Shown: positions 1,076 through 42,247 of the stretch, in pieces
Layout of the letters: each line of letters opens with the position of its first letter
How positions within the stretch are numbered: position 1 is the first letter of the stretch
Assembly (NCBI GenBank): GCA_022771625.1
Contig: JALFCW010000003.1
Location: forward strand, 23,872 to 87,871
From: Prevotella sp.
GTDB lineage: Bacteria > Bacteroidota > Bacteroidia > Bacteroidales > Bacteroidaceae
Length of the DNA stretch: 64,000 nt
Direction of reading: 5' to 3'
Position numbers and translations under genes: made by a program
Notes under the pieces: model-generated
What the model was told of the DNA's origin: nothing
Databases searched by the model: none
The model's input: only the letters and a program-made list of their open reading frames with translations

Positions 1076-1918
1076 CTATTTTGTGGCAGCTGTATTCTCG
1101 GCGAATGATATTATTATTCCCGCCACCATTCCGGCAATAGCTATAAACAATGTGATGGAGAGGACGTGAACAACAATCACCTTGCGTATTGTTGTCCTCC
1201 ATTTATATCCGAAGATATACTTGTAATCCCATACAAAAAGAATAAACAGCAACCACCATGGCAGGGGATAGAAGGTATAGTCTTCCTTGCCGTTGCTGAA
1301 GATGGGCAGATAGATAATCGACAATGCCATCATCTGTCCGCTCATAAACACCTGAGTGAAGAAATGCTCTGCCATCGTGGCTTTGGGTCGGGTGGGCGAC
1401 TTGCGGAACACGCCCCATGCAAACAGCATGAAGAAGGAGTGGAGGCAGATGAGTTCCACGGCTTTATGCTGATCCATCCATACCACAATATTCTTTACTG
1501 TCATCATCATTTCTTCTGTTGAGATTTTCTTGCCATTGAAGTTGACGACAGTATTATTAGTGTTCTCCTTGAGATTCTTCTTGAGTGCCTCGTCATTCAT
1601 ACTGCTTGTAATCTGTTCGGAGATGGTTTTTTCGCCGAGCAGTGACGACTCCACGGCAAAGAAGATGCAAAGCACGAAGAGCATCTTCACAGGCGGGAAG
1701 AACGGCATGCGCTTGCCATCGAGATATTCGCCAATCATCTGTCCTGGTCGGTAGATGAGGTGCAATACTGTGCGTGGCAATGAGCGGTTGCCCATACCCC
1801 ACACCTCTAATGTCGCCATCAGTGCTTTCTTGACGGTGAATCGTTGCGTGCTTGCCGGTTGGCCGCACGAGGGGCAGTAGTTGCCGATGAATTCAGTATG
1901 GCAGTTGAGACATTCCAT
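1076..1918 (-). CDS. DUF3667-type membrane protein with N-terminal zinc ribbon
   Basis: MECLNCHTEFIGNYCPSCGQ zinc ribbon followed by membrane segments. Confidence 0.75.
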   Translation of the reverse strand: MECLNCHTEFIGNYCPSCGQPASTQRFTVKKALMATLEVWGMGNRSLPRTVLHLIYRPGQMIGEYLDGKRMPFFPPVKMLFVLCIFFAVESSLLGEKTISEQITSSMNDEALKKNLKENTNNTVVNFNGKKISTEEMMMTVKNIVVWMDQHKAVELICLHSFFMLFAWGVFRKSPTRPKATMAEHFFTQVFMSGQMMALSIIYLPIFSNGKEDYTFYPLPWWLLFILFVWDYKYIFGYKWRTTIRKVIVVHVLSITLFIAIAGMVAGIIISFAENTAATK

Positions 1919-1925
1919 ATTTATT

Positions 1926-2040
1926 GGGGAGTTAAGGAGTTAAAGGAGTTAAGGAGTTAAGCCAATAGTATTGAGCATACATTGTAAGCGCTATTAACAT
2001 TTGGCTTTAACTCCTTAACTCCTTAACTTCTTAACTCCTA
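1926..2040. repeat. Inverted array of GGAGTTAA-type repeats (family B, copy 1)
   Basis: Left arm ggggagttaaggagttaaaggagttaaggagttaagccaa, right arm ttggctttaactccttaactccttaacttcttaactcct; loop includes AGCGCTattaACATTTGGCT. Confidence 0.9.
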
Positions 2041-2044
2041 AAAA

Positions 2045-3751
2045 TTACGCTTTAAAATTCTCCAAGTCCTCGGGCTTGAACGCCTTGATATAGGCATGAT
2101 GTGCAGCGCACTCAGCCTCGGCATGGCGAACGAAGACGTTGACACTCTTCTTGAAGAGTTCGGGAGCGCGAGTGGCATCCTCAAGCAGCAGGATAGACAT
2201 GATGATGTCGGCAGTCATCTCGTAGAGACGGCGTGCGAGGAAGTCCTGCATATCCTGGTTGCCCTGCTCCTTCACGTAGTTGAGTGCATCTTCATACTGC
2301 TCGATGAGCTTGGCGATACGCTCGCGCATTGGGGCGGCACACTCGCAGATAGGACGCTCCATCATCTCCTTCATGATTGAGAGGTAGGTGCCGTTGGTGA
2401 TATAGCGGATGGCAGCCACTACCTGAAGCTGTGTTGTACCCTCGTAGATAGAGAAGATACGTGCATCGCGATAGAGGCGCTGACTCTTGTATTCCATGAT
2501 GAATCCCGAACCGCCGTGAATCTGAATGGCATCGTAGGCATTCTGGTTTGCATACTCGGAGTTCATACCCTTTGCCAGAGGAGTGAATGCGTCAGCCAGA
2601 CGTGTGTATTTCTTTTGCTCGGCACGCTCCTCGGGAGTGAGTTTGCGCTCGCGGGCAATGTCGTCGAGAGCCTTGTAGATATCCACATAGCGTGCTGTCT
2701 GATAGAGAATGGCGCGACCGGCATCGAGCTTGGCCTTCATGCGTGAGAGCATGTCATATACAGCGGGGAAGTCGATGATGGCAGTGTCAAACTGCTTGCG
2801 CTCCTTGGCATAGGCAAGTCCCTCGTTGTAGGCAGCCTGGCTTACTCCTACCGACTGTGCGGCGATACCGAGGCGTGCACCGTTCATCAGGGCCATCACA
2901 TACTTGATAAGACCCAGGCGGGTGCTACCGCAGAGTTCGCACTTGGCGTTCTTATATACAAGCTCACATGTGGGTGAACCGTGGATACCGAGTTTGTGCT
3001 CGATATGACGTACGGTGACACCTCCGTCGCGCTTGTCGTAGATGAACATCGAGAGTCCGCGTCCGTCGTGTGTACCCTCCTCAGAGCGTGCGAGCACGAG
3101 GTGGATGTCGGAGTCGCCGTTGGTGATGAATCGCTTCACACCATTCAGTCGCCAGCACTTGTTCTCCTCGTCGTAGCTTGCCTTGAGCATCACGCGCTGG
3201 AGGTCGGAACCGGCGTCAGGCTCAGTCAAGTCCATTGACATTGTCTCACCTGCACATACGCGGGGGATGTACTTCTTGCGCTGTTCCTCGTCGCCAAACT
3301 CATAGAGTGTCTCGATACAATCCTGAAGGCTCCAGATGTTCTGGAAACCAGCGTCGGCAGCCGATACAATCTCCGAGGCCATAGAGTAGGGAGTGATAGG
3401 CATGTTAAGACCGCCGTAGCGACGGGGCATCGACACGCCCCAAAGACCAGCCTTGCGGGTGGCGTCGAGGTTTTCGAATGTCTTGGATGCATACACCATG
3501 CGTCCGTCAACGAGGTGTGGACCTTCGAGGTCAACAGACTCAGAGTTGGGTTCTATGATGTTGGCGGCTATGTCGCCTGTAATCTCGAGCATCTGCTTGT
3601 AGTTCTCGATAGCGTCGTCGAAGTCAACGGGAGCGTCGGGATATTCTGCAGCATCCACGAATCCACGTTCCTTGAGTTCAACGATGCGTTTCATTTCCGG
3701 GTGATTCAAATAGAATTCAAATTCCGGATGGTCACTATAATAGTTTGCCAT
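2045..3751 (-). CDS. Acyl-CoA dehydrogenase
   Basis: TEPDAGSDLQ, GVKRFITNGD, IHGGSGFIMEYKSQRLYRDARIFSIYEGTTQLQ motifs; adjacent to EtfAB. Confidence 0.93.
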   Translation of the reverse strand: MANYYSDHPEFEFYLNHPEMKRIVELKERGFVDAAEYPDAPVDFDDAIENYKQMLEITGDIAANIIEPNSESVDLEGPHLVDGRMVYASKTFENLDATRKAGLWGVSMPRRYGGLNMPITPYSMASEIVSAADAGFQNIWSLQDCIETLYEFGDEEQRKKYIPRVCAGETMSMDLTEPDAGSDLQRVMLKASYDEENKCWRLNGVKRFITNGDSDIHLVLARSEEGTHDGRGLSMFIYDKRDGGVTVRHIEHKLGIHGSPTCELVYKNAKCELCGSTRLGLIKYVMALMNGARLGIAAQSVGVSQAAYNEGLAYAKERKQFDTAIIDFPAVYDMLSRMKAKLDAGRAILYQTARYVDIYKALDDIARERKLTPEERAEQKKYTRLADAFTPLAKGMNSEYANQNAYDAIQIHGGSGFIMEYKSQRLYRDARIFSIYEGTTQLQVVAAIRYITNGTYLSIMKEMMERPICECAAPMRERIAKLIEQYEDALNYVKEQGNQDMQDFLARRLYEMTADIIMSILLLEDATRAPELFKKSVNVFVRHAEAECAAHHAYIKAFKPEDLENFKA

Positions 3752-18389: not shown

Positions 18390-18537
18390 ATAAGGAGTTA
18401 TTAAATAAGGAGTTATAATGGGGAGTTAAGATGGGGAGTTAAAATGGGCCATTACTCTCAGCGCTTAGACATTTGGCTCTTCATTACTTCCCCTCATAAC
18501 TTCCCCTCATAACTCCTCCTCATAACTCCTCCATAAA
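18390..18537. repeat. Inverted array of GGAGTTAA/GGGGAGTTAA repeats (family B, copy 2)
   Basis: Left aaataaggagttataatggggagttaagatggggagttaaaatgggcc; right cttcccctcataacttcccctcataactcctcctcataactcc; core AGCGCTtagACATTTGGCT shared with copy 1. Confidence 0.85.
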
Positions 18538-20163: not shown

Positions 20164-23100
20164 ATGCAAGAAACTATGTTGAGTATTAGAAGGATATACA
20201 CCATTATAGCAGCTATGCTGACCCTCTGCGCCACAACCATGGCGCAGACAACATTCAGCGGTCCTATACGATATGTCACAACGTCGGGCAACTATGCCAA
20301 CGACGGAACGTCGTGGGCGCAGGCTAAGAACAACCTGCAGGATGCCATAGAGTCGCTTCACGACTATATGACCCGAAACGGCATCACGGAGGGACGCGTG
20401 TATGTGGCGAAGGGAACTTACCGCCCCACCACATCTACCCCCGGTGGCGACGGTGTGCTATATACTTCTTTTCTCATCTATGATGGCATAACGGTGTATG
20501 GAGGATTTAATGCTACAAATCCCGAAGCCACTCCCGAAGACCGTATCGTCCTTGCTGCCGACGGAAAAACAGAAAGGACAATCTCTCAGGCCATAGGATT
20601 GAAGTGGCGAATGAAGAACACCACCACGCTCAGCGGTAATCACAGTAGCTCTACGGAAGATCCGATGAAGTGGAACTCATCAAAGAACGAATACGACGAG
20701 TCATTTACGGGCAACTCATACCATGTGGTATGGTTTGCCACCAACACCTCAACCCATTCCTCCGGTCTCGACGCAAGAAACCGTGCCGTGGGGCTTGCCA
20801 ATAAGGCAGCCATCGACGGATTCACTATCCAGGAAGGCAATGCCTCCAACCGCACTGTGCCCGAGGAGACCGACGGCCGCCATGCCTATCACAACAGCTA
20901 CGGCGGCGGTGTGTATATGGTGGCAAACAGTGAGGTGCGCAACTGTATCATACGTCAGAATGCCTCAGCACTGCGCGGAGGCGGCGTGTATATGGACGGC
21001 GGAGGACTGATGGAGCAGTGCTATGTGGCACAGAACCAGTCGGATGGTGTGGGCGTTACCGACGGCTATGGCGGCGGTGTGGCTTGTGATGACGGTGGCA
21101 TTGTGCGCAACTGTATCATAGAGAACAATGCCGGACGATGCGGCGGCGGACTGTCCATTGCCTTCTCCTCAATACCCGCTACTGACAAGGCGCGCTATGC
21201 CTCGTATGCCTCTGGATGCGTGGTGGCAAACAACACGTCGCAGGCTGAGGCTGGCGGTGTGTTCATGCGCAACGGCGGACTGCTCAACCACCTCACCATC
21301 ACATGCAACAACTGTGTGGGAGCGGGAGTGGTGTATAACAACCGGCGCTACGGACGCAGTGGCGGACTCTATGTGGATGGAGGCGGCATGGTGGCTAACT
21401 CCGTGATTTGGGGCAACATGGTGGCTGCCAATAATGATGTGCAGTATGCCACATACCGCGAAAGCTCAACCACACCGAAGGTGAAATTTGACTTCGTGGC
21501 ATTGTCAAAATACAACTATGTCGATTGGAGCGGTACGGTGAAGCGCACCAACGGTGTGTATTCCTTGAATGAGGAAAACAGAAACACGACAACTAAAGGG
21601 TATTATCCCGACTTCACCACACCGCCCTCAGACAAGGGAGTTAGTCAAGCCCCCGAGGTGCCCTTGAGCTGGATACCCCGCTCGTCGTCATACCTGCGCC
21701 ATCAGGGTATGCAGCTCAACGACTATCCAACGAGCGCCAACTATCCCAATGGCTCTGACTACGAGACGGAAGGCAAGGACGTCGTGGATGCGTTCCTTGT
21801 CAGCGACATGACAGGCAAGCAGTTTGCGCCCCGTTGTGTGCTTGGAGCCTTTGTGGCCAACAGTCCTACGGGAGAGCATGCCAGTGTGGTGAGTGTCGAG
21901 GACAATATAACTTCGATAATAACCGTTTTTATCGACCCATCTACAGATGCAGTTGTGTCTCCGTCAGAATATGACAATACGCCGATAGGCAATTCATGGG
22001 ACAATCCCTTCAATAATATCAACGATGCCTTGGATTATGTCAAGACACTTACTATTTCAGATACCAGTCCCGTGCAGATGCTTGTCAAGGAGGGCACATC
22101 CACAACGGCGGGAAATACCTATCTGCCCTATATCCGCTCGTCTTTCATAGACCTGCCGAGCCACGTGCGACTGTATGGCGGTTTCGCCTCGTCGCTCAAA
22201 GGCACTGACATCTCCAAGCGAAATCCCAAGGCTTATCCCACGCGCATCACTGCCAACATCACTGGCAGCGACTATGCCGAGAACGGATGCCATATCATCA
22301 CAGTGCGCCATGGAGCGACCGACGTCATTGTGGATGGATTCCAGCTCTACTTCGCCAATGCCCAGAAGAGCAGTGTGCTGCCGACCCTCGCTTTGGAGGG
22401 AGGAGCGGGCATCGCCATTATCAACAGCGAAGCCGACCAACCGATGAAGGACATCAAGATACGCAACTGTGTGGTAGCCAACTGCACTGCCTCGCAAGGC
22501 TCCGCCCTTTTCCTGCGCAACACTCCCGGTGCCGTGATGCAGGTGGATGTGGAGAACTGTATCTTCCACAACAATGCCGTCACCCGTGAGCAGGCAGCCA
22601 CCGTTGAGGCTACGGGCAACAACACCACGCTCACCCTCAATCACTGCCTCATTCGTGGCAACGTGGGATATGGCGTTATGGCAACTGATAATGCCAATAT
22701 CAAGGTGAAGAACACAGCCCTTCATGCCAATATTGGCTATAACTCATATAGCGGATCTTCGAATCCAAAGATTACCGACCTTATTGCCACGGAGTCCAAT
22801 CCCGACCCCAATGTCGTAACCTTCTATACGACATCAAATGGAAAAATATCTGTATCCGACGATGCAACGTCTGCCAATAATATGATGGACCTGGGAGTTA
22901 GTGATGCTGTTGCAACCGCAGTAGCCACCTCCAAGTTCTCCTATCACTCCTCATATACCTCCACCTATCCCAAGTTCGTCAACCCCACGAGCAACATCGG
23001 AGTGAACAAGGATGGCGATGTGACGATGTACGGTGGCGACCCCAACTGGATGCCGATGAACATGAACCCGATGGTGAATGCTGCCAACGAGAGTAATCCC

Positions 23101-26100
23101 GATTTCGGATTTGACTTCACGACAGTAACAACGAGAAATTATGGCGGTCTTTCTGATATAGGCGCCATTGAGAACACATCATTGCCGGAGTTTGGCAAGG
23201 TGATTTATGTCACGGAGAAGGGTGCCGGAAAGAAAGACGGTTCTTCTTGGAGCAATGCCATTGCAGGTAATACTGTGTATGACTTAGAAGGAAAGAACAT
23301 TCTTTCTGTATCAACAACTTCTGATGACTATATATCAGGAGTTTATAAAGAAACATCCAATGGTAACCTTGACTTTTGGGATGCAAGTTCGGGAAATACA
23401 ATAACGTCTGGTAAGGTAATAATTAAAAATAACAGATATGAACGTTATATCAGTGGACTTCAGTATGCTGTAGAAATCGCTTCGGCAAATAGTATTAGTG
23501 AAGTGTGGGTTGCAGGTGGAATATATACAGACTATAAAGGATATGTAATTAGGGATAAAGTAAATGTTTATGGTGGATTCCCCAATTATGGGAATCCAGG
23601 AAATTCAGAGCGTCATCCTTTATTGTCAAGTTCAGTTCCAGTAAGTATTTCTAATAGTGGATTGGCAGATCAAATTGACAAGTATGAAACTATTCTTCAA
23701 ATATCCAGTGAGTCACCTGTAACTTGGGATAATTCTGCTGGAAAATATACACTAAAGGATTGGGTGATAAGTAAGGTTAATTCGAAGACTGTTGAGAGAC
23801 GTACTGTGTTGAGACAGCCAGATGTTTGTATGCCAACTTGGTCACCAAGAAACCATACTTCCACCATCCCTGAAACAAAGAATGGTAATTATGCGGCAAA
23901 TACATATAGGTATAAGGGAGCTAAGAACGGTAAAGAAGATACAGAAAATTATATAGAATATAATGATGTGATATGGGATGGTTTTACCATACAAAATGGT
24001 TACATCACAAATTATTTTGCCAATAGAGATGGAGGAGCCGGAGTTCGATTGTTCCGAGGAGTGACCCTTTCTAATTGTATTGTGAAGAATAATGTAAATG
24101 TATCATGTAGAAATAGAGCAGGAGGAATTTATTGCGATGGAGAAAATACCACAGTAAATAACTGTTTTATTTTTAATAATGTAGCAGAACTTCGCGGTAA
24201 CTACAACTCAGATAATGCAGGTAATCCAAATGATGGTGGATTTGGGGGCGGATCATATATGATTGTTGGTACTGGATTTAACCTCCTTATATGTAGAAAC
24301 TACTCTTCAAAAAATGGAGGTGGTCTTTTCTTGGAATGTTCCACCTTTTATAATAATACTGTTGCTTACAATATTAGCGGAGATGGCGTTGGTGGAGTTT
24401 GCCATTGGACAAATCAACAATATTTGGATGCCAAGATAGAGTTATTTAATTGTCTGTTTTATAAAAATAGTGGACGTGCAGTGCATTCTTCTTCTCCTAA
24501 TTTTTTTACATCTCCTACAAATTGTTATGTGCATACAGTAAAAGACTTGGATGGAAGTGTAAGTAAAAAATTCACAACGACAGGTGAAAATAAATCGTAT
24601 GTTGGCACAACCTTGGCGAATCCTTTCTATGATGGAGATAATGCGATGATTAGTAATAATTATAGCTTGAAACCAAGTAATGAAACTTTAACTAATGATT
24701 GTATAAATACGGGAAATAATACTCCTAACGGAGCTACTTTGCCTTCTACGGATATTGACTTCACCGACCGTATCCAGGACTGTACAGTGGATATCGGTGC
24801 ATACGAGTTCAATGGTGCGTATAGCATCACGCCAGATGTAACGACAAGCGCAGACCAGGCGGTGTTCTATGTCACGCAGAACGGACGCGGCACTGGCTCG
24901 GCGGCTAATCCTGAGAATGCTGCTTGCTGGACCAAGCTGCAAAAAGTGTTGGATGCTGCGGGAAGATATTTGGAGGTGCATAAAGGCGATGAAGTCAAGA
25001 AACAAGTGATTGTGAAATTGGCGGGAGATGTACCAACGGAAAGTGTGGACGAGAGCGGAAATAAAACCTACAAGTATTCGGGCTTCGTCTATCGCCCCCG
25101 CCGCTCAAACAAGGTGACGGCTTCGGGACAGGAGGTGAACACACGCGACTATACCATCATCGTGCCCCACGGTGTGGAGGTATGGGGCGGATATAGCGAC
25201 GCCTTCACAAGTTCTGACAACAACGGATTCTATACCAAGGTCTCTGAGGGCAACTATACTGACAACCGTGATGTACTGAAAAACCGCACAACTCTCAGCG
25301 GTGTGTATCAGGCTGACGACCAGGATGTAAACGTGTATAATGTGGTGACGTTCACCAATGATACATATACCGAAGAGGGAACACTCAAGACACCAGATGC
25401 TCTTGAAAACATATCAGCCCGCGCCGTGCTCGACGGACTATTCATAGAAGACGGTAATGCCGACGGCGAGAAGCAATCTTCCGGAAAGAGAACAGACACT
25501 CGTGTGGGTGGCGCTGCCATCGTCACGGGATATGCACATATACGCAACTGCGTGGTGCAGAACAACAAGGCTACGGATGCCGGAGGTGGACTGTATCTCG
25601 AAGAGGGCGCATTGGTGAGCGGAAGTATCGTGCAATATAACGAGGTAACCAAGGGTGACGGAGGAGGACTATACGTGGAAGAACCTGCATCGGCATACTC
25701 TGAGAATGTCAACGCCGCAACCAACCCTGCCCGCATCTTCACGTCCGACATCATATATAACACGGCAAGCGGAGCGGGAGGAGGTATCTCGTTCACCACC
25801 GACGGCACGCCGAATGTCAGGGCAAACAGTGTGCTGTTCTGGCAGAACACGGGTAGCGAGCAGTCGAACGTCAACGGCATGACAACACCGACGGATGCAG
25901 GGAACACCAACCTTACCATCAAAGACTATCCCATATCCTTCTGCGCCACTGAGACAACACGTGAGCCGGGTATCAACAACATTTCCGTGAACACCGATGT
26001 GGACAAGGGTGTGCGCTTCGCCACAGAAACGTACAACCATGACTATACCGACAGCAAGGGAACGCCTGTCAAGAGGAAGCACAATGAATATGAGTTCTAT

Positions 26101-29100
26101 AAGATAAAGAAATACAGTCTGCTGGCACGTGGAGGCATGGAGTACAAGGACTATAAAGCCCTTGTCGAGAGTGATGCCCTTACCGCCGAAGACATGGCGA
26201 ATGTGACCCGCACATTTCAGGGCAACGACTTCATTGACATCGGAGCGAGAGCCATCGGCGAACTGGTGCTGCCTGTGGCAAATGAAGATAACCTCATGAC
26301 CCGAATCTTCGTGGTGAAGAACGAGGAAGACGTAGCCACAACATCCGTAGAGGTGATGCAGAACCAGACTACGAGTAAATACTATCAGCAGGAAGGCTCG
26401 TCGTTCGCCTATCCAATGCGCTATCTCGACGATGCACTTGAATACGTGAGGGATGCACGTAAGCTGAAGAAACTTAATGATGAACAAACCGACTCTGTGT
26501 ATGCATATAATGACACGAAGTTTGAGATTATCCTCAGCGGCGGAACATATTATCCTATGCGAAACATCAAGGGAGAATATGTGAACAGCCGCGGACGTAC
26601 ATATCTCGTGCCTGAAGGCGTGACCATCGTTGGAGGTGTCGAGACAAAACAGAGCGACGCAAGCAGTGGTGAGTCTTATTATGGAAATATCGCTTCTGTT
26701 GGAAAATTGCCAGAAAGTAATGTTGCATCGACAACATTTACTTATGGCACTTCAAATGTCGTTATCTCCCATCCCGAGATTAAGGACATCATAAAGAACC
26801 GCAAGCTCTCCGACATCAACCACAACAACATTGCCGAGCCGTGGGAGATGGCAGTGCAGACCATTCTGTCAGGACAGGTGGTGAACGGTAATTCCAACGA
26901 AAACGTATATCACGTCATAGCTTGTATTGCCGACGAGAAGCATGTGGGAGGACTGCCCGACGCTACGATTAAATATCACGACAGCAAAAGTGAGAAATAT
27001 GACTCAAATGCCGGCAATGGCACTGTTCCATACGAGCGTGGTGTGCCTGTAATCATTGATGGTGTGGAGATAGAGGACGGCACGGCTATGGGATATGACG
27101 CAAAAGCCGTGAACAGTGTATATACATATTATAAAGGTGGAGCTATTTGCGTCGAAGGCAACTGGGTTACTAATACTACTACCAATTCAGGAGACTATTT
27201 CAAAACATATACTGGCATAGACCGTCCTGTTGGCCACCGCAGCATCCCCCTTGAGGTGCGCAACTGCAACTTCCGCAATAATGGCGGATGCCTTGGAGGT
27301 GCCATCTTCACCGACAGCGAACTGAAGGTTTTTGCCTGCAACTTTGTGCAAAACTATGCCAAGGTGGAGACTGACCAAATAGGTAATAATAGTGTGACAT
27401 ACGCCGGACGTGGCGGCGCCATCAATGCCAGCTATAACACCGTAATAGTTAACTCGCTATTTGCAAACAATGAGGCTGACACGTCGCCATCGCCCGGCGG
27501 AGCTGAACTTAGGGGAGTGGGCGGAGCCGTGCTGCTCGGAGAGCATGCCTCGCTACACATGATAAACTGTGACGTGGTTCGCAATCTTGCCTATGCCTAT
27601 CCCGCTATCTATTGCTATGAGCCAAATAAAGGAGGCAAGTACTCTGATGGCGAACAAACATTGAAAACAAACAATCCACATAAGATAGTCAATACCATAT
27701 TTTGGGGCAATGAGGTGACTGGTGGCAGCGGGATGGACAAGGTTGCCAACTTTGACAAGGACTCACATGACAATACCAAGAACGCCGAGATGCTTTGGTT
27801 CTGCGCCTACGAGGAGGGTAAGGGCAACGCCCCTGTAAACTCCAAAAACAATATTGACTACCGACTCCAGGATTATGAGGGATTCGGAACTTTCATACCT
27901 TCGCTGTGGACAGGAAACTATAACAAGTTGGGCAGCGACAACAAGTCAATAGAAAATGTAGATGGTACTAATCCCGACAAGGATCCCAATACAGGTCTTA
28001 ACCCCGTTACCTGCAATATCATCATAGACTCTGACAACGATGCCATCAACGGACCGAACTTCATCAACCCGTCGTCAAAGGCAGGAAAGGCAGGATATTA
28101 TACCTCTGCTGACTGGATGATAGGTCGTATCAACAACCTCGTGGATAATGGATGGACATTCCTCCAGCAAGACCTGAAGGATGGTGACCCTAAGTTTGTC
28201 TATATTGACGATGAGGGAAATATCGTTAGTCAGAGCACCTCAGGGGCAGAGGCGGCGGGTGCAGGTATCTACCGCCGCACTGCTTACGACTATGACAATG
28301 TCAACACGGGTGAAACTGCTGTGCCAATCGGTAATGACAAGTATATGACATACGCCGATGGTACGGGCAAGGCGATGCTGCGTATTTCCACTGACCCTAA
28401 CCCTACTCACCACCAGACTTACATTGATCTCGGCGTGTATGAATACCAGCACGTGAAACTCGATCCGTCGGTGGAGAACGGACATGTAGATGTGCTGTGG
28501 GTGACGCAACAGGAGAGAACCAGTGCCTCGGTGGCTGACGGTAAGACTTGGGAGACGGCTACGAGTGACGTGCAGCGAGCTATAGAGACCTTGCTCGCAT
28601 CGCGCAACGGACACGACAAGGAAATCCGTATGCTCGAAGGACGATACCAACCCGTATATACCATCAACGGCAATCTCGGTTTCACTATCACTACCGATGT
28701 GACAACCGGCATAGTGCCGCCAGACTGGAAAGGCTCTACCACTAAAGGCGTGAACTCGCTCACCATACGCGGTGGCTACAGTAAGGATGTGCAGGGACTG
28801 GAGAACATCCACGACTATCCAGTATATCTTTTTGCTTCAGAACGCTCAGGTGTGGATGGCAATCTGCTCGGACATGTGTTCGTGATAGGTGATGTAAGGC
28901 AGAGGGAATCGACAGGTTATTCTACAGATAAGACGGTTACTACCGATGTGAAAGACTATGTCGTTCCTGTATATCTCGACGGATTGACCTTCTGTAATAT
29001 TAAGTCTATGCCGCATACAGATATTGCCGGAGGTAGTTGCTCAGGCGGTGCCGCTGTGTTCTATAAAGACCAGAAGAAGAATCAGGACGGTGAAAATGGT

Positions 29101-32100
29101 TCTCTTGTAGGTAAGTCATACGTCACGGAGAATGGAACAACAGTTGATTCATATACACAATATCCAATCAGCGGCACAGAATCTAAATATCCTCTCTATA
29201 AGCTGACGATGAACCGCTGCGACTTCCGTGTCAATGGAGCTACCTCAGAAGTGCCGGCAGTAACGATAGGCGCGGGTGGAGGTGAGGCTCTGATATATAA
29301 CTCCGTATTCCATAGCAATATGGGTAGTCCGCTCATCGCCACAGATACCAAGGTGGTAAACTGCACTTTTGCCCTCAATGGCGGTAGTATTCAATTCAGG
29401 AACACTGCACAGGGCAAGTCGGAGATGCACAACTCTGTGCTTTGGTGCAATAATGGATATAAGACTACACCTGAATGCACAGGACTATCGTCTGGAAGTA
29501 TGACATATAATGCCATATCGTCTCTCAGTTCAGACGATGATGACAATCATAATGTAACCTTGTCATCCGACAACAACGACGTGCTCCAAGGCCCGAACTT
29601 CTTTGCCCCGGCGGCATTAACAGCTGCTGACAGTTGGGCTAAGGCATCGCGTGACTTCCGTGTCAATCCGAGTGCAAAGATTATCGGTAAGGCATCGCCT
29701 AAGATATATGTGGATCTCGTGAGGGACCTCACGGGAAGGTATCCTTATACAACAACTGAGACTAAAAAAGATGACGACAACGACCCGTATTATGTGGACT
29801 TGGTGAAGAAGGATTTCGACCTTGCCAATAACACCCGCTATTACGGCTCTGCCGGTATGGAGCGAGGTGCATACGAATGTATCGCCACTCTGAGCCGTGT
29901 GTTGTATGTCAATCCCGAACGTGTGTCGTCAAGTGCCGACTATAACGGATTCTCATGGGAGAAGGCATATACCAAGGGCAATCTGCAGAAGGCCATCGAT
30001 GCCGCAGCCGTTTATTCTAACGTACATAATGAGAAATCGTATGTCTTTGTCAAGGGTATGGCCACATCCACCGGTGAGACCATCACCATGCGCGACAACG
30101 TAACGCTTTATGGAAGTCTGCCGTCAACCACAGCCATCAATACGGGAGTTGAGGAGACGACAGATAAGAATGGAAACAAGTATTACGATAACGACAAGAT
30201 AGAAAAATATATCAAGGCTATGGACGCCGACCGCGACGGTATGGCTTCTTCTTATTCCAAGCATACTATCGTGAATGGTGTAAAATCGGTGGAGCCTTTA
30301 ACCTACTGTCTTTTTGACGGACTTGAGATAGGCAGCGGAGATAACAACTCTGCCAATGTCGCTACATCGCCCGTGGTGGATATACAGCAAGGCAATGTGG
30401 CCCTGCGCAACTCCATCATTGCCAACAATGAGATTACTGCCACCGGTCAACCCCTCGTCAACCTCCAGTCGGGACTGCTCTACAACACGCTTATACGTGA
30501 CAACAAGGTGGCTGAAACTTCAGATGCTCTCGTCTCGCTTGGAGCTAACGGCTATATGCTCAACTGCACCGTAGTAGGAGGTGGCTTGACTCAAGGCTCC
30601 ACCGTCTCACACGCCATTAATAATATAATGTATAAGGAGACAGACGCAGCCATGCCTTTCGCTCCGTATTTCCGTCATTCCACCACAGCTTATCATGGAG
30701 AGATACCTGCGGAGGATGTTAGCAACCGCAACCTCTGGTATCAGTTGCATGAGAGAACTACTAATATTGAGGGAGGTGAGAATGGTGATGCTAACGACGA
30801 AAGTAAATACGATGGCAAGAGCCATGTGTCAGACAAACTCAAGCAGTATGTTGACTATACCTCAGACCGCGACCTTCTCGGCAATCCTCGCTTCCTTGGC
30901 TTGAAGGTGGATAACGGATGCTTCGAGACATGGTCAACGGGTGCAATGACTAAGTCAGGCTCTGTAGCCCCCAATGTCCTCTATGCCGATGGCTCCGCTG
31001 ATAACTATAACGGTCAGTATTATCCGCACGAGGGTTCGGTGGTTTATCTGCAGCCATCAGGTAAATTAGTATGTAAGAATATAACCGACGGAGCGGGTAA
31101 TGTGACATCGCATTACTTTACCGATTCCAATCCTCTGCGCCCGGGCTACGTTCTGGCATTGGAGGGCGGCTCGCTCTACGGACAGGGCAATACTATCGAC
31201 CTCCGATATGTGGCAGCCGAGCGAACCATCAGACAGCAAACCATCGGACAGCAAACCATCGCACAATACTCCCTCGTCTCACTGCCATTTGACATGAACT
31301 ATGGGACGGACGATAAAGGCAAAATGCCTTTCGTTACTACCACCACCTACGATTCCAACAATAATGTTACAGAGACAGCCGTTGCCCCATTCTCTCGATA
31401 TGAGTATGACGGTGAGGCACGAAGCCACTATAAGTACAGCTTTGCAGAGAGCAATTCTACATGCTGGAAACCGCTCACCACAAACATCCGCACTGCCAAC
31501 GAGGGTATGCTCATCGACCGTGGCTCTACAGCTACAGAGCAAAAACTTCGCTTCACGGCATACGGAGCGACTGCCGCTGACTATCCTTATCGTGAGTCTG
31601 CCGATAAGGATTATGTCACCCTCACTCAATATGACGACCGCACATCAATCGAAGGCGGCTCTGACTTCACCTCTGTATATAATATGGGATGGAATCTCAA
31701 GGGCATGCCTTATCTCATCAGTAGTTATCCGATATTCCAACAGATGGATGATGACTCGTATGTCATGAATGTGCCGCACGTCATATATACAATGAACCCC
31801 AATGGAAGCTATGTGACGAAGCAATCGTGGGCATCTTCTGCTGATAACACACTCTCGCCCGGAGAAGCCTTCTTCACACAGACTGCAACCATCAACACAG
31901 AGGAGCATCTCCACTTTGCCCAGCTCTTCTATACCTCTTCTGCTTCTACTAACACGGCCAGCACCCGTTCCGCCCTCAACATCTCCTTGTCTTCCGCAGA
32001 TGCAACAGGTGAGGATGCCTATAGGAGCTTGGGCGTCTCGCCCGCGGCTGGTGCTGTCTGTCTGCAGCCAGTGGATAACACCTCTGATGATAACACCTCT

Positions 32101-32715
32101 GATGATAACACCTCTATGGTATATACCATCAATCGCGACGGAGCGAAGTTTATGTCGATGAATCCCGCTATCCCCGACATAGCCGTATGCGGAGCAGGAG
32201 GCGAGATGATGTCGTTGGCTGGAGCCGCACCTGTAGAGACAGAGATTTCAGTGGCAACGAGGGTCGGCACGACAGGTCGTTACACCTTCTCGCTCGATAA
32301 GAGTGCAGGCGTTTCACCCGCCACCACCGAGGTATGGTTAAAGGACTATCAAACGGGTATTGTAACGAATCTTATGGAAGATGATTATACTGCTGAGATT
32401 ACTGTGGGCGAGAATCCTGCATCCCCGGTGCTTACCACCGGTAGATTCTCATTGACAATAGGCGGTATGCGTCCTGACATCGGTGGATGGGATGAAAGCG
32501 GTGCCGGATGGACCATATCCATTAACCGTTGTCACGTAACAGTCTCTGATCTCTCCACAGATTCCGATGTCCTCTTCTACACCACCGATGGCATACTCCG
32601 CCATCGTGCCACTCCATTCCTTGGCAAATGCGAGGCAGAGCTTTCTCCTGGCGTATATGTAGTCAGGGCAGAGGGAAATAGCAAGGTTATAGGGCTTGTA
32701 AGGAGAGATAAATAG
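20164..32715 (+). CDS. Giant (4183 aa) secreted parallel beta-helix adhesin with about 7 repeated modules and a T9SS-like C-terminal domain
   Basis: Signal peptide IYTIIAAMLTLCATTMAQ; repeated module starts (RYVTTSGNYANDGTSWAQA, IYVTEKGAGKKDGSSWSNA, FYVTQNGRGTGS, LWVTQQERTSASVADGKTWETA, LYVNPERVSSSADYNGFSWEKA) and module ends (DIGAIE, DIGAYE, DLGVYE, ERGAYE); C-term SPGVYVVRAEGNSKVIGLVRRDK. Confidence 0.85.
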   Translation: MQETMLSIRRIYTIIAAMLTLCATTMAQTTFSGPIRYVTTSGNYANDGTSWAQAKNNLQDAIESLHDYMTRNGITEGRVYVAKGTYRPTTSTPGGDGVLYTSFLIYDGITVYGGFNATNPEATPEDRIVLAADGKTERTISQAIGLKWRMKNTTTLSGNHSSSTEDPMKWNSSKNEYDESFTGNSYHVVWFATNTSTHSSGLDARNRAVGLANKAAIDGFTIQEGNASNRTVPEETDGRHAYHNSYGGGVYMVANSEVRNCIIRQNASALRGGGVYMDGGGLMEQCYVAQNQSDGVGVTDGYGGGVACDDGGIVRNCIIENNAGRCGGGLSIAFSSIPATDKARYASYASGCVVANNTSQAEAGGVFMRNGGLLNHLTITCNNCVGAGVVYNNRRYGRSGGLYVDGGGMVANSVIWGNMVAANNDVQYATYRESSTTPKVKFDFVALSKYNYVDWSGTVKRTNGVYSLNEENRNTTTKGYYPDFTTPPSDKGVSQAPEVPLSWIPRSSSYLRHQGMQLNDYPTSANYPNGSDYETEGKDVVDAFLVSDMTGKQFAPRCVLGAFVANSPTGEHASVVSVEDNITSIITVFIDPSTDAVVSPSEYDNTPIGNSWDNPFNNINDALDYVKTLTISDTSPVQMLVKEGTSTTAGNTYLPYIRSSFIDLPSHVRLYGGFASSLKGTDISKRNPKAYPTRITANITGSDYAENGCHIITVRHGATDVIVDGFQLYFANAQKSSVLPTLALEGGAGIAIINSEADQPMKDIKIRNCVVANCTASQGSALFLRNTPGAVMQVDVENCIFHNNAVTREQAATVEATGNNTTLTLNHCLIRGNVGYGVMATDNANIKVKNTALHANIGYNSYSGSSNPKITDLIATESNPDPNVVTFYTTSNGKISVSDDATSANNMMDLGVSDAVATAVATSKFSYHSSYTSTYPKFVNPTSNIGVNKDGDVTMYGGDPNWMPMNMNPMVNAANESNPDFGFDFTTVTTRNYGGLSDIGAIENTSLPEFGKVIYVTEKGAGKKDGSSWSNAIAGNTVYDLEGKNILSVSTTSDDYISGVYKETSNGNLDFWDASSGNTITSGKVIIKNNRYERYISGLQYAVEIASANSISEVWVAGGIYTDYKGYVIRDKVNVYGGFPNYGNPGNSERHPLLSSSVPVSISNSGLADQIDKYETILQISSESPVTWDNSAGKYTLKDWVISKVNSKTVERRTVLRQPDVCMPTWSPRNHTSTIPETKNGNYAANTYRYKGAKNGKEDTENYIEYNDVIWDGFTIQNGYITNYFANRDGGAGVRLFRGVTLSNCIVKNNVNVSCRNRAGGIYCDGENTTVNNCFIFNNVAELRGNYNSDNAGNPNDGGFGGGSYMIVGTGFNLLICRNYSSKNGGGLFLECSTFYNNTVAYNISGDGVGGVCHWTNQQYLDAKIELFNCLFYKNSGRAVHSSSPNFFTSPTNCYVHTVKDLDGSVSKKFTTTGENKSYVGTTLANPFYDGDNAMISNNYSLKPSNETLTNDCINTGNNTPNGATLPSTDIDFTDRIQDCTVDIGAYEFNGAYSITPDVTTSADQAVFYVTQNGRGTGSAANPENAACWTKLQKVLDAAGRYLEVHKGDEVKKQVIVKLAGDVPTESVDESGNKTYKYSGFVYRPRRSNKVTASGQEVNTRDYTIIVPHGVEVWGGYSDAFTSSDNNGFYTKVSEGNYTDNRDVLKNRTTLSGVYQADDQDVNVYNVVTFTNDTYTEEGTLKTPDALENISARAVLDGLFIEDGNADGEKQSSGKRTDTRVGGAAIVTGYAHIRNCVVQNNKATDAGGGLYLEEGALVSGSIVQYNEVTKGDGGGLYVEEPASAYSENVNAATNPARIFTSDIIYNTASGAGGGISFTTDGTPNVRANSVLFWQNTGSEQSNVNGMTTPTDAGNTNLTIKDYPISFCATETTREPGINNISVNTDVDKGVRFATETYNHDYTDSKGTPVKRKHNEYEFYKIKKYSLLARGGMEYKDYKALVESDALTAEDMANVTRTFQGNDFIDIGARAIGELVLPVANEDNLMTRIFVVKNEEDVATTSVEVMQNQTTSKYYQQEGSSFAYPMRYLDDALEYVRDARKLKKLNDEQTDSVYAYNDTKFEIILSGGTYYPMRNIKGEYVNSRGRTYLVPEGVTIVGGVETKQSDASSGESYYGNIASVGKLPESNVASTTFTYGTSNVVISHPEIKDIIKNRKLSDINHNNIAEPWEMAVQTILSGQVVNGNSNENVYHVIACIADEKHVGGLPDATIKYHDSKSEKYDSNAGNGTVPYERGVPVIIDGVEIEDGTAMGYDAKAVNSVYTYYKGGAICVEGNWVTNTTTNSGDYFKTYTGIDRPVGHRSIPLEVRNCNFRNNGGCLGGAIFTDSELKVFACNFVQNYAKVETDQIGNNSVTYAGRGGAINASYNTVIVNSLFANNEADTSPSPGGAELRGVGGAVLLGEHASLHMINCDVVRNLAYAYPAIYCYEPNKGGKYSDGEQTLKTNNPHKIVNTIFWGNEVTGGSGMDKVANFDKDSHDNTKNAEMLWFCAYEEGKGNAPVNSKNNIDYRLQDYEGFGTFIPSLWTGNYNKLGSDNKSIENVDGTNPDKDPNTGLNPVTCNIIIDSDNDAINGPNFINPSSKAGKAGYYTSADWMIGRINNLVDNGWTFLQQDLKDGDPKFVYIDDEGNIVSQSTSGAEAAGAGIYRRTAYDYDNVNTGETAVPIGNDKYMTYADGTGKAMLRISTDPNPTHHQTYIDLGVYEYQHVKLDPSVENGHVDVLWVTQQERTSASVADGKTWETATSDVQRAIETLLASRNGHDKEIRMLEGRYQPVYTINGNLGFTITTDVTTGIVPPDWKGSTTKGVNSLTIRGGYSKDVQGLENIHDYPVYLFASERSGVDGNLLGHVFVIGDVRQRESTGYSTDKTVTTDVKDYVVPVYLDGLTFCNIKSMPHTDIAGGSCSGGAAVFYKDQKKNQDGENGSLVGKSYVTENGTTVDSYTQYPISGTESKYPLYKLTMNRCDFRVNGATSEVPAVTIGAGGGEALIYNSVFHSNMGSPLIATDTKVVNCTFALNGGSIQFRNTAQGKSEMHNSVLWCNNGYKTTPECTGLSSGSMTYNAISSLSSDDDDNHNVTLSSDNNDVLQGPNFFAPAALTAADSWAKASRDFRVNPSAKIIGKASPKIYVDLVRDLTGRYPYTTTETKKDDDNDPYYVDLVKKDFDLANNTRYYGSAGMERGAYECIATLSRVLYVNPERVSSSADYNGFSWEKAYTKGNLQKAIDAAAVYSNVHNEKSYVFVKGMATSTGETITMRDNVTLYGSLPSTTAINTGVEETTDKNGNKYYDNDKIEKYIKAMDADRDGMASSYSKHTIVNGVKSVEPLTYCLFDGLEIGSGDNNSANVATSPVVDIQQGNVALRNSIIANNEITATGQPLVNLQSGLLYNTLIRDNKVAETSDALVSLGANGYMLNCTVVGGGLTQGSTVSHAINNIMYKETDAAMPFAPYFRHSTTAYHGEIPAEDVSNRNLWYQLHERTTNIEGGENGDANDESKYDGKSHVSDKLKQYVDYTSDRDLLGNPRFLGLKVDNGCFETWSTGAMTKSGSVAPNVLYADGSADNYNGQYYPHEGSVVYLQPSGKLVCKNITDGAGNVTSHYFTDSNPLRPGYVLALEGGSLYGQGNTIDLRYVAAERTIRQQTIGQQTIAQYSLVSLPFDMNYGTDDKGKMPFVTTTTYDSNNNVTETAVAPFSRYEYDGEARSHYKYSFAESNSTCWKPLTTNIRTANEGMLIDRGSTATEQKLRFTAYGATAADYPYRESADKDYVTLTQYDDRTSIEGGSDFTSVYNMGWNLKGMPYLISSYPIFQQMDDDSYVMNVPHVIYTMNPNGSYVTKQSWASSADNTLSPGEAFFTQTATINTEEHLHFAQLFYTSSASTNTASTRSALNISLSSADATGEDAYRSLGVSPAAGAVCLQPVDNTSDDNTSDDNTSMVYTINRDGAKFMSMNPAIPDIAVCGAGGEMMSLAGAAPVETEISVATRVGTTGRYTFSLDKSAGVSPATTEVWLKDYQTGIVTNLMEDDYTAEITVGENPASPVLTTGRFSLTIGGMRPDIGGWDESGAGWTISINRCHVTVSDLSTDSDVLFYTTDGILRHRATPFLGKCEAELSPGVYVVRAEGNSKVIGLVRRDK

Positions 32716-34606: not shown

Positions 34607-35074
34607 ATGAGCAAGTTAGTAATCAACAATTATGAGGATTTTGCCGCAATGCTCGGCAAGAATCTTGGTATTTCCGACTATGTGGAGCTCTCTCAGGAGC
34701 GTATTAATCTGTTTGCCGACGCTACTCTCGACCATCAGTGGATTCATGTCAATCCCGAGAAAGCTGCCGTAGAGAGTCCTTTCAAGACCACCATTGCCCA
34801 TGGTTATCTCACGCTTTCAATGCTTCCATATCTGTGGAATCAGATTATCGAGGTGAATAATCTCAAGATGATGGTCAACTATGGTATGGACAAGATGAAA
34901 TTTGGTCAGGCTGTCAAGTCGGGCGAGTCAATACGCCTCGTTGCCGACCTTGCTTCTATTGCCAATCTGCGCGGCACTGTAAAGGCCGAAATCAAATTCC
35001 GCATTGAGATTAAGGACCAGCGCAAACCGGCGCTCGAGGGCAACGCCTTGTTCCTTTACTACTTTGAAAATTGA
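34607..35074 (+). CDS. MaoC-like (R)-hydratase
   Basis: FADATLDHQWIHVNPEKAAVESPFKTTIAHGYLTLSMLP. Confidence 0.93.
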   Translation: MSKLVINNYEDFAAMLGKNLGISDYVELSQERINLFADATLDHQWIHVNPEKAAVESPFKTTIAHGYLTLSMLPYLWNQIIEVNNLKMMVNYGMDKMKFGQAVKSGESIRLVADLASIANLRGTVKAEIKFRIEIKDQRKPALEGNALFLYYFEN

Positions 35075-35135
35075 AGATTGAAAATTGAAGATTGAAGATT
35101 GAAGATTGAAGATTGAAGATTGAAGATTGAATTGA
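35066..35135. repeat. Tandem TTGAAGA heptamer array (family A, copy 2)
   Basis: ttgaaaattgaagattgaaaattgaagattgaagattgaagattgaagattgaagattgaagattgaattg. Confidence 0.95.
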
Positions 35136-41857: not shown

Positions 41858-42066
41858 ATATTCTTAACTTCTTGATTTTTTGCAAAGGTAATAATTAATT
41901 TTCATATATCAAAACTTATATCCGTTTTTCTCGTTCTCCTTGCCGAATTTCTGCGAATCATCAATCGGCCTCCTCAGTCATCAATCATCATCCCCTGCCT
42001 CCCCGTCCAAATGTCCCCTATCCATTTTAATGTAAAATGGAGTATCTTGGAGATCCATAGACCTCG

Positions 42067-42247
42067 GTTCTTATGACATTACTATACTCAGTTCTTATGT
42101 CATTAGAATACTCAGTTCTTATGTCATTAGAATACTCAGTTTTTATGTCATTAGAATACCCAGTTCTTATGATACAAGAATAGGGTGTTCTTTTGACCTT
42201 AGGATGCCCTGTTCTTATGTCATTATAATCGGGTGTTCTAAAACAAG
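42067..42247. repeat. 24-bp tandem repeat array, about 7.5 units (family D)
   Basis: Units GTTCTTATGTCATTAGAATACTCA with exact 24-nt period; units 2 and 3 identical, outer units degenerate. Confidence 0.95.

Follow-up and report, generated by a model that had tools for sequence, protein, structure and literature searches.

The closest described relative in kind of the repeats considered here is the BrickBuilt MITE of P. gingivalis. Like them, BrickBuilt and the other MITEs of that organism belong to the Bacteroidales, combine short terminal repeats with an internal tandem repeat and are always intergenic, and the parent transposase of BrickBuilt is likewise located elsewhere (PMC4596501). However, BrickBuilt carries 23-bp direct repeats in a single block and ends in AAGACCTTTGCA / CCGAAAGGTCTC (PMC4596501), whereas the units described below occupy both complementary arms of a palindrome and the ends are CTNAASTTTCGCA. 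Another resemblance is to the REP/REPIN sequences, which likewise lie between genes as imperfect hairpins, reach a high copy number in some genomes and have G(K)AG feet, possibly comparable to those found here (PMC3733652, PMC6006769); but an entire REP measures 20-40 bp against a stem of 35-55 bp in the well-matched copies here, and the present copies have no RAYT beside them and in many cases possess terminal inverted repeats and an 8-bp target duplication. Template switching, in turn, homogenizes the arms of inverted repeats and inverts their spacers (PMC8794818, PMC8604942). Arm homogenization, multibase compensated changes and spacer inversion all recur here, but the described cases concern RNA genes, yeast coding genes and E. 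coli test sites (PMC8794818, PMC8604942, PMC7202029) rather than a dispersed mobile repeat family. In the literature searched, the unit sequence appears in no paper and this hairpin family is not described. What we observe is mostly explained by known processes, namely MITE mobility and template switching, the combination of which is undescribed in that literature.

The window, a stretch of 64,000 nucleotides from a Prevotella sp. genome, holds two copies of the hairpin (Table 1). The sequence-only reading had placed a long inverted repeat at 1926-2040; the hairpin is real, but direct reading of the sequence confines the palindrome proper to 1928-2038. Its 47-nt core is common to host copies on C103 and C145 (22.2k) and to copies in the genomes G111, G104 and G154, and its arm unit GGAGTTAA is present 11 times in the window, where shuffling predicts 1.15. 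Folded as single-stranded DNA, it attains a z-score of -10.1 relative to dinucleotide shuffles, while the second copy (18390-18537), whose core has the identical direction on the plus strand, attains -4.9. The arms of the second copy had been called similar to those of the first: the core is indeed shared, but the units are 13-15-bp derivatives and not GGAGTTAA.

Table 1. Parts of the two hairpin copies in the window and the genes next to copy 1
Feature	Position	Strand	Description	Basis
Copy 1, left arm	1928..1959	.	plus strand: (GGAGTTAA)4 and one additional A	sequence, TRF; paired with 2007-2038 in the fold
Copy 1, core	1960..2006	-	inner stem, a small internal loop and a terminal loop; minus strand: AGCC-AAATGT...GCGCT...CAATACTATTGGCT	sequence; common to C103, C145:22.2k, G111, G104 and G154
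Copy 1, right arm	2007..2038	.	plus strand: four TTAACTCC-type units, one of them TTAACTTC	sequence, TRF, fold
Acyl-CoA dehydrogenase gene	2045..3751	-	neighbours copy 1 on the upstream side, codirectional with its core	
DUF3667 protein gene	1076..1918	-	downstream neighbour of copy 1	
Copy 2, left arm	18390..18446	.	15-bp and 13-bp units (TTATTAAATAAGGAG, GGAGTTAAAATGG)	sequence, TRF, fold
Copy 2, core	18447..18478	-	shortened; minus strand: AGCCAAATGTCTAAGCGCTGAGAGTAATGGCC	sequence, core scan
Copy 2, right arm	18479..18537	.	13-bp units (TCATAACTTCCCC / TCATAACTCCTCC)	sequence, TRF, fold

The family is real: its members are non-coding, multi-copy, mobile DNA hairpins lying between the genes of Prevotella/Bacteroides relatives. 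In the 3.16-Mb host genome the pattern AGCGCT-N(0-8)-ACATTTGGCT is matched only at copies 1 and 2, and nowhere when read backwards. A search with the arms yielded two more host copies (C103:34862-34969 and C145:22150-22271), while 834 kb of that genome, among them C103 and the beginning of C145, returned no copies besides the known ones in a loose scan. Scanning 150 genomes of the same genus for the core recovered matches with arms in G111 (30), G104 (3) and G147 (1); a match in G052 has no arms and was dismissed as chance. The pattern GGAGTTAAG-N25-55-CTTAACTCC is found in 47 of 299 same-genus genomes, with up to 43 matches in one of them, and its reversed control in none of the 299. Named carriers include Segatella copri, Segatella buccae, Hallella seregens, Prevotella jejuni and Prevotella communis and, further, Phocaeicola intestinalis and Bacteroides MAGs. 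Copies share the layout (GNAGTTAA)n-GGAGTTAAG-MC / small internal loop / second stem / variable loop / G-K-CTTAACTCC-(TTAACTNC)n: 8-bp G(G/A/T)AGTTAA units make up both arms, the feet (GGAG, GTAG or GAAG) are situated inside the stem, and the loop changes fast. The proposal of a true dispersed repeat family thus stands, with four copies in the host and up to 43 pattern matches in one relative, and the further copies that had been asked for exist in both. As a dispersed repeat of gut and rumen bacteria, it coincides with many assembly contig ends.

The hairpins are intergenic, close to stop codons, and border core genes such as ftsH at their ends. Where both neighbours were called (125 copies), 39 of the gaps are convergent, 74 codirectional and 12 divergent, as against 53, 169 and 67, respectively, among neighbouring element-free gaps (p=0.0006; approximate, from a simple ORF caller). 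The codirectional copies divide 37/37 by orientation, indicating no strand preference. The hairpin, then, avoids promoter-side gaps and is indifferent to its own orientation. Individual sites are variably occupied. For instance, the etfB-etfA junction carries the hairpin in three species and is without it in the window genome, while the ftsH-cdsA gap carries it in G000 and in one G111 contig and is without it in other species; in the host, the ftsH frame now terminates at a TAA within the hairpin arm. The ftsH-cdsA gap looks like a hot spot for repeats. In a close relative, G154 (L311), an unrelated C/G-rich palindrome stands there in place of the hairpin.

In many relatives the hairpin lies within a unit of about 165 bp bounded by the inverted terminal repeats CTNAASTTTCGCA; such units occur in G111, G104, G009, G069, P5-108 and others. 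Across 30 end-bearing elements the mean direct repeat at the borders is 5.4 nt, compared with 1.16 (maximum 2.5) for shuffled partners; where present it is mostly 7-9 bp, usually 8, and 8 of the 30 have none. A clean empty site is also available: the unit L036 of G111 has AAAATAA on both sides, and the orthologous site of the window genome (L409) is empty with a single AAAATAA. The check for empty sites and target duplications suggested by the sequence-only reading came out positive for such units. A pattern search for the ends detected a 1.6-kb IS in G104 (C14:269.1-270.7k) with inverted CTGAACTTTCGCAAGTGAA and the 8-bp target duplication TTAGGTAA. It encodes an intact 479-aa transposase of the IS4 family (IS4_4, NF049925; 374 bits against a cut-off of 250). 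This element shares with the MITE forms the terminal inverted repeat CTGAACTTTCGCAAGT and the 8-bp duplication, but differs in carrying the transposase and in having no GGAGTTAA hairpin. Since its ends and duplication length match those of the units, an IS of this type is the likely transposase source, and from these common features it is inferred that an IS4-family transposase moves the CTNAASTTTCGCA units in trans. An intact IS4_4-type transposase was found in G104 alone, G147 has a decayed remnant of one, and most hosts lack the gene or keep it in decayed form; G009 and G069, with 29 hairpin pattern matches each, gave no match to it, and related transposases elsewhere are associated with the ends CTNAAGTTTCCCACC.

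Ends of the CTNAASTTTCGCA type also enclose units with different palindromes. One such, L264:2054-2302, has like terminal repeats (CTCAACTTTCGGAAGT ... ACATGCGAAACTTAAG) around another inner palindrome (AAACCACAGAG ... CTCTGTGGTTT). In G069 (C1, 3304.9-3308.9 kb; L086, L097), ends of the MITE type bound a composite of about 4 kb that combines REP-like GCCCTGAAAGGGC units with a pair each of Y1 transposase and Rpn-type nuclease genes, and MITEs of 240-300 bp with GCCCTGAAAGGGC-type REP-like content are scattered in G069 and G111.

Conversely, neither CTNAASTTTCGCA ends nor a target duplication were found beside 1928-2038 or 18390-18537. Terminal repeats are likewise missing from the C145:22.2k copy, from most copies in G077, G089, G297 and Bacteroides and from many others, and most of those in G077, G089, G297 and Bacteroides also have no clear target duplication. 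Hence, we file the window copies as hairpin-only members of the family rather than intact MITEs, and IS4 mobilization is suggested for a subset only. The label MITE-like accordingly fits the family, with its terminal repeats, 8-bp duplications, empty site and IS4-type element with matching ends, and does not fit the window copies. These may be either old MITE copies whose ends have been lost or copies spread by another route. At the site orthologous to that of copy 2 (L209; flank identities 97.8% and 94.5%), Prevotella sp. P5-108 holds a canonical complete unit with GTTATTAA duplicated, one on each side, and with the core oppositely directed; relative to this unit, the window hairpin is shorter and rearranged.

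The two arms remain matched even though their 8-bp units change. Arm statistics were taken from 55 distinct ungapped arm pairs, chosen beforehand for a minimum of 17 pairs out of 24 and, being related sequences, not independent of one another. Of their positions, 93% are paired versus 61% when the right arms are re-dealt; changes affecting both arms amount to 174 transversions as well as 140 transitions, and the mismatches are G-T in 17 and A-C in 18 cases. In alignment A1, 63 cells show a change on both sides against 18 +/- 4.6, a signal lost when the partner is slid, and one-sided cells of the G-U type are almost absent in the arms. When oriented by transcription direction, the few mismatches concerned comprise 6 G-U and 3 A-C. 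In the orthologous trio L157/L211/L250 the loops differ, and the changes at two arm positions are fully compensated. L239 has a GC-rich insert of 18 bp in each arm, the two being complementary, an arrangement that is hard to obtain by independent mutation. This covariation with almost no G-U, the many transversions and the L239 insert point to arm-to-arm copying in DNA by template switching, as opposed to selection on RNA. GC-rich mini-hairpin inserts in a single arm (AGCGACCNNNGGGAGCGA or CGCTTCGCT) were observed in 40 of 140 elements (e.g. L036, L161, L267). Cores may also be lost: G111:C175 retains only GGAGTTAAGGAGTTAACTCCTTAACTACC where G000 and G111:C195 hold the full element, possibly through assembly error given that this is a MAG, in which palindromes can be misassembled, and a hairpin that is complete in G028 is without its core in G068.

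Among other explanations, chance, in the form of slippage arising locally and independently in GGAGTTAA-like sequence together with a coincidental core match, would account for tandem units that differ between loci. It is vanishingly improbable: the core is matched twice genome-wide at precisely the two hairpin sites, identical core and layout recur at dozens of loci in other species, and the additional copies already refute it. The earlier exclusion of independent slippage is upheld in this respect for the origin of the copies, but slippage and template switching within the arms probably shape each of them. That the hairpin is a selected structured RNA or attenuator, acting in transcripts as a 3'-end stabilizer, riboswitch-like element or bidirectional terminator, is consistent with its very stable fold (RNA z -11), its placement directly after stop codons with an excess in convergent gaps, and its retention at one site across three species despite a changing loop. 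We nevertheless regard this as quite improbable, because gene-relative orientation is unbiased, covarying pairs are almost devoid of G-U intermediates with G-T and A-C mismatches equally frequent, and an Rfam scan of the window matched one tRNA only and left the hairpin without a family; the suggestion of a structured RNA is accordingly not borne out. Moreover, the flanks after the stem are A-tracts in 32 and T-tracts in 9 of 126 cases, and a scan for terminators found none. A typical intrinsic terminator was itself rejected, there being no T-tract after the stem. Integron attC sites have the box order 5' RYYYAAC ... GTTRRRY 3', and this identity too was discarded as the boxes of the hairpin are reversed (GTTAAGC...GCTTAAC). 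Dozens of orthologous and paralogous hairpins whose arms change together, one of them with an insert in both arms, constitute a natural repeated experiment on arm homogenization. As a genome-wide record from bacteria, they allow template switching to be tested against structure selection, which bears on the long-standing problem of covariation being taken as proof of functional RNA.

The GNAG feet of the hairpin raise the alternative of a REP/REPIN type, wherein a RAYT (Y1 HUH) would process the single-stranded hairpin via the GGAG/GTAG foot and the MITE ends would be secondary. RAYT-type proteins of about 320-345 aa are indeed present in the hairpin-rich G111, G009, G147 and G154, and presence of the hairpin is associated with a close RAYT clade (9/21 vs 38/278, p=0.002), but the association drops to p=0.08 once the four genomes in which the RAYTs were discovered are removed. 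Further, the RAYT genes have no flanking hairpin copies, a RAYT of that type is nearby in only 1 of 116 named loci, and G000, G104 and G082 have hairpins with no PF01797 match. With adjacency negative and the association weak outside the discovery genomes, we rejected a RAYT as the obvious partner and hold the REP/REPIN account unlikely. A subclass-2.6-like RAYT, moreover, has a different palindrome of its own, TTCCTGCGGATTTGCAATCCGCAGG: at L099:480-2187 (G297:C81) a RAYT of the Bacteroidetes subclass-2.6 type (NHLH, WQ, YIHNNP) is situated between TTCCTGCGGATTTGCAATCCGCAGG palindromes, likely its cognate REP; upstream, TAACTCCYG units form an array of their own. It is conceivable, if rather unlikely, that the end-less hairpin is a self-propagating long palindrome, a single-strand or template-switch product that rewrites its own arms into mutual match and was only secondarily captured by IS4-type MITEs, which carry other palindromes too. 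On balance, we consider it probable that these are a non-autonomous MITE/REP-like hairpin family of the Bacteroidaceae, with IS4 mobility of CTNAASTTTCGCA units in trans combined with arm copying by template switching. Under this reading, units bounded by CTNAASTTTCGCA would be mobilized in trans by an IS4-family transposase and the hairpins would settle between genes near stop codons; template switching in replication would copy one arm onto the other, adding or removing units, and could invert the core, while slippage across the hairpin may lead to core loss. A gene-regulatory role is unnecessary for explaining the data.

Other features of the window may be recorded. Downstream of copy 2, at 20164-32715, is an ORF of 4183 aa with a match to the right-handed beta-helix. 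Seven tandem 24-bp units (CTCAGTTCTTATGTCATTAGAATA) occupy 42063-42229 in a stretch without long ORFs. At 35064-35131, a nearly perfect TTGAAGA repeat of 9.7 copies lies at the junction of two ORFs; as its unit is 7 nucleotides long, changes in length would shift the frame, making it a possible phase-variable site.
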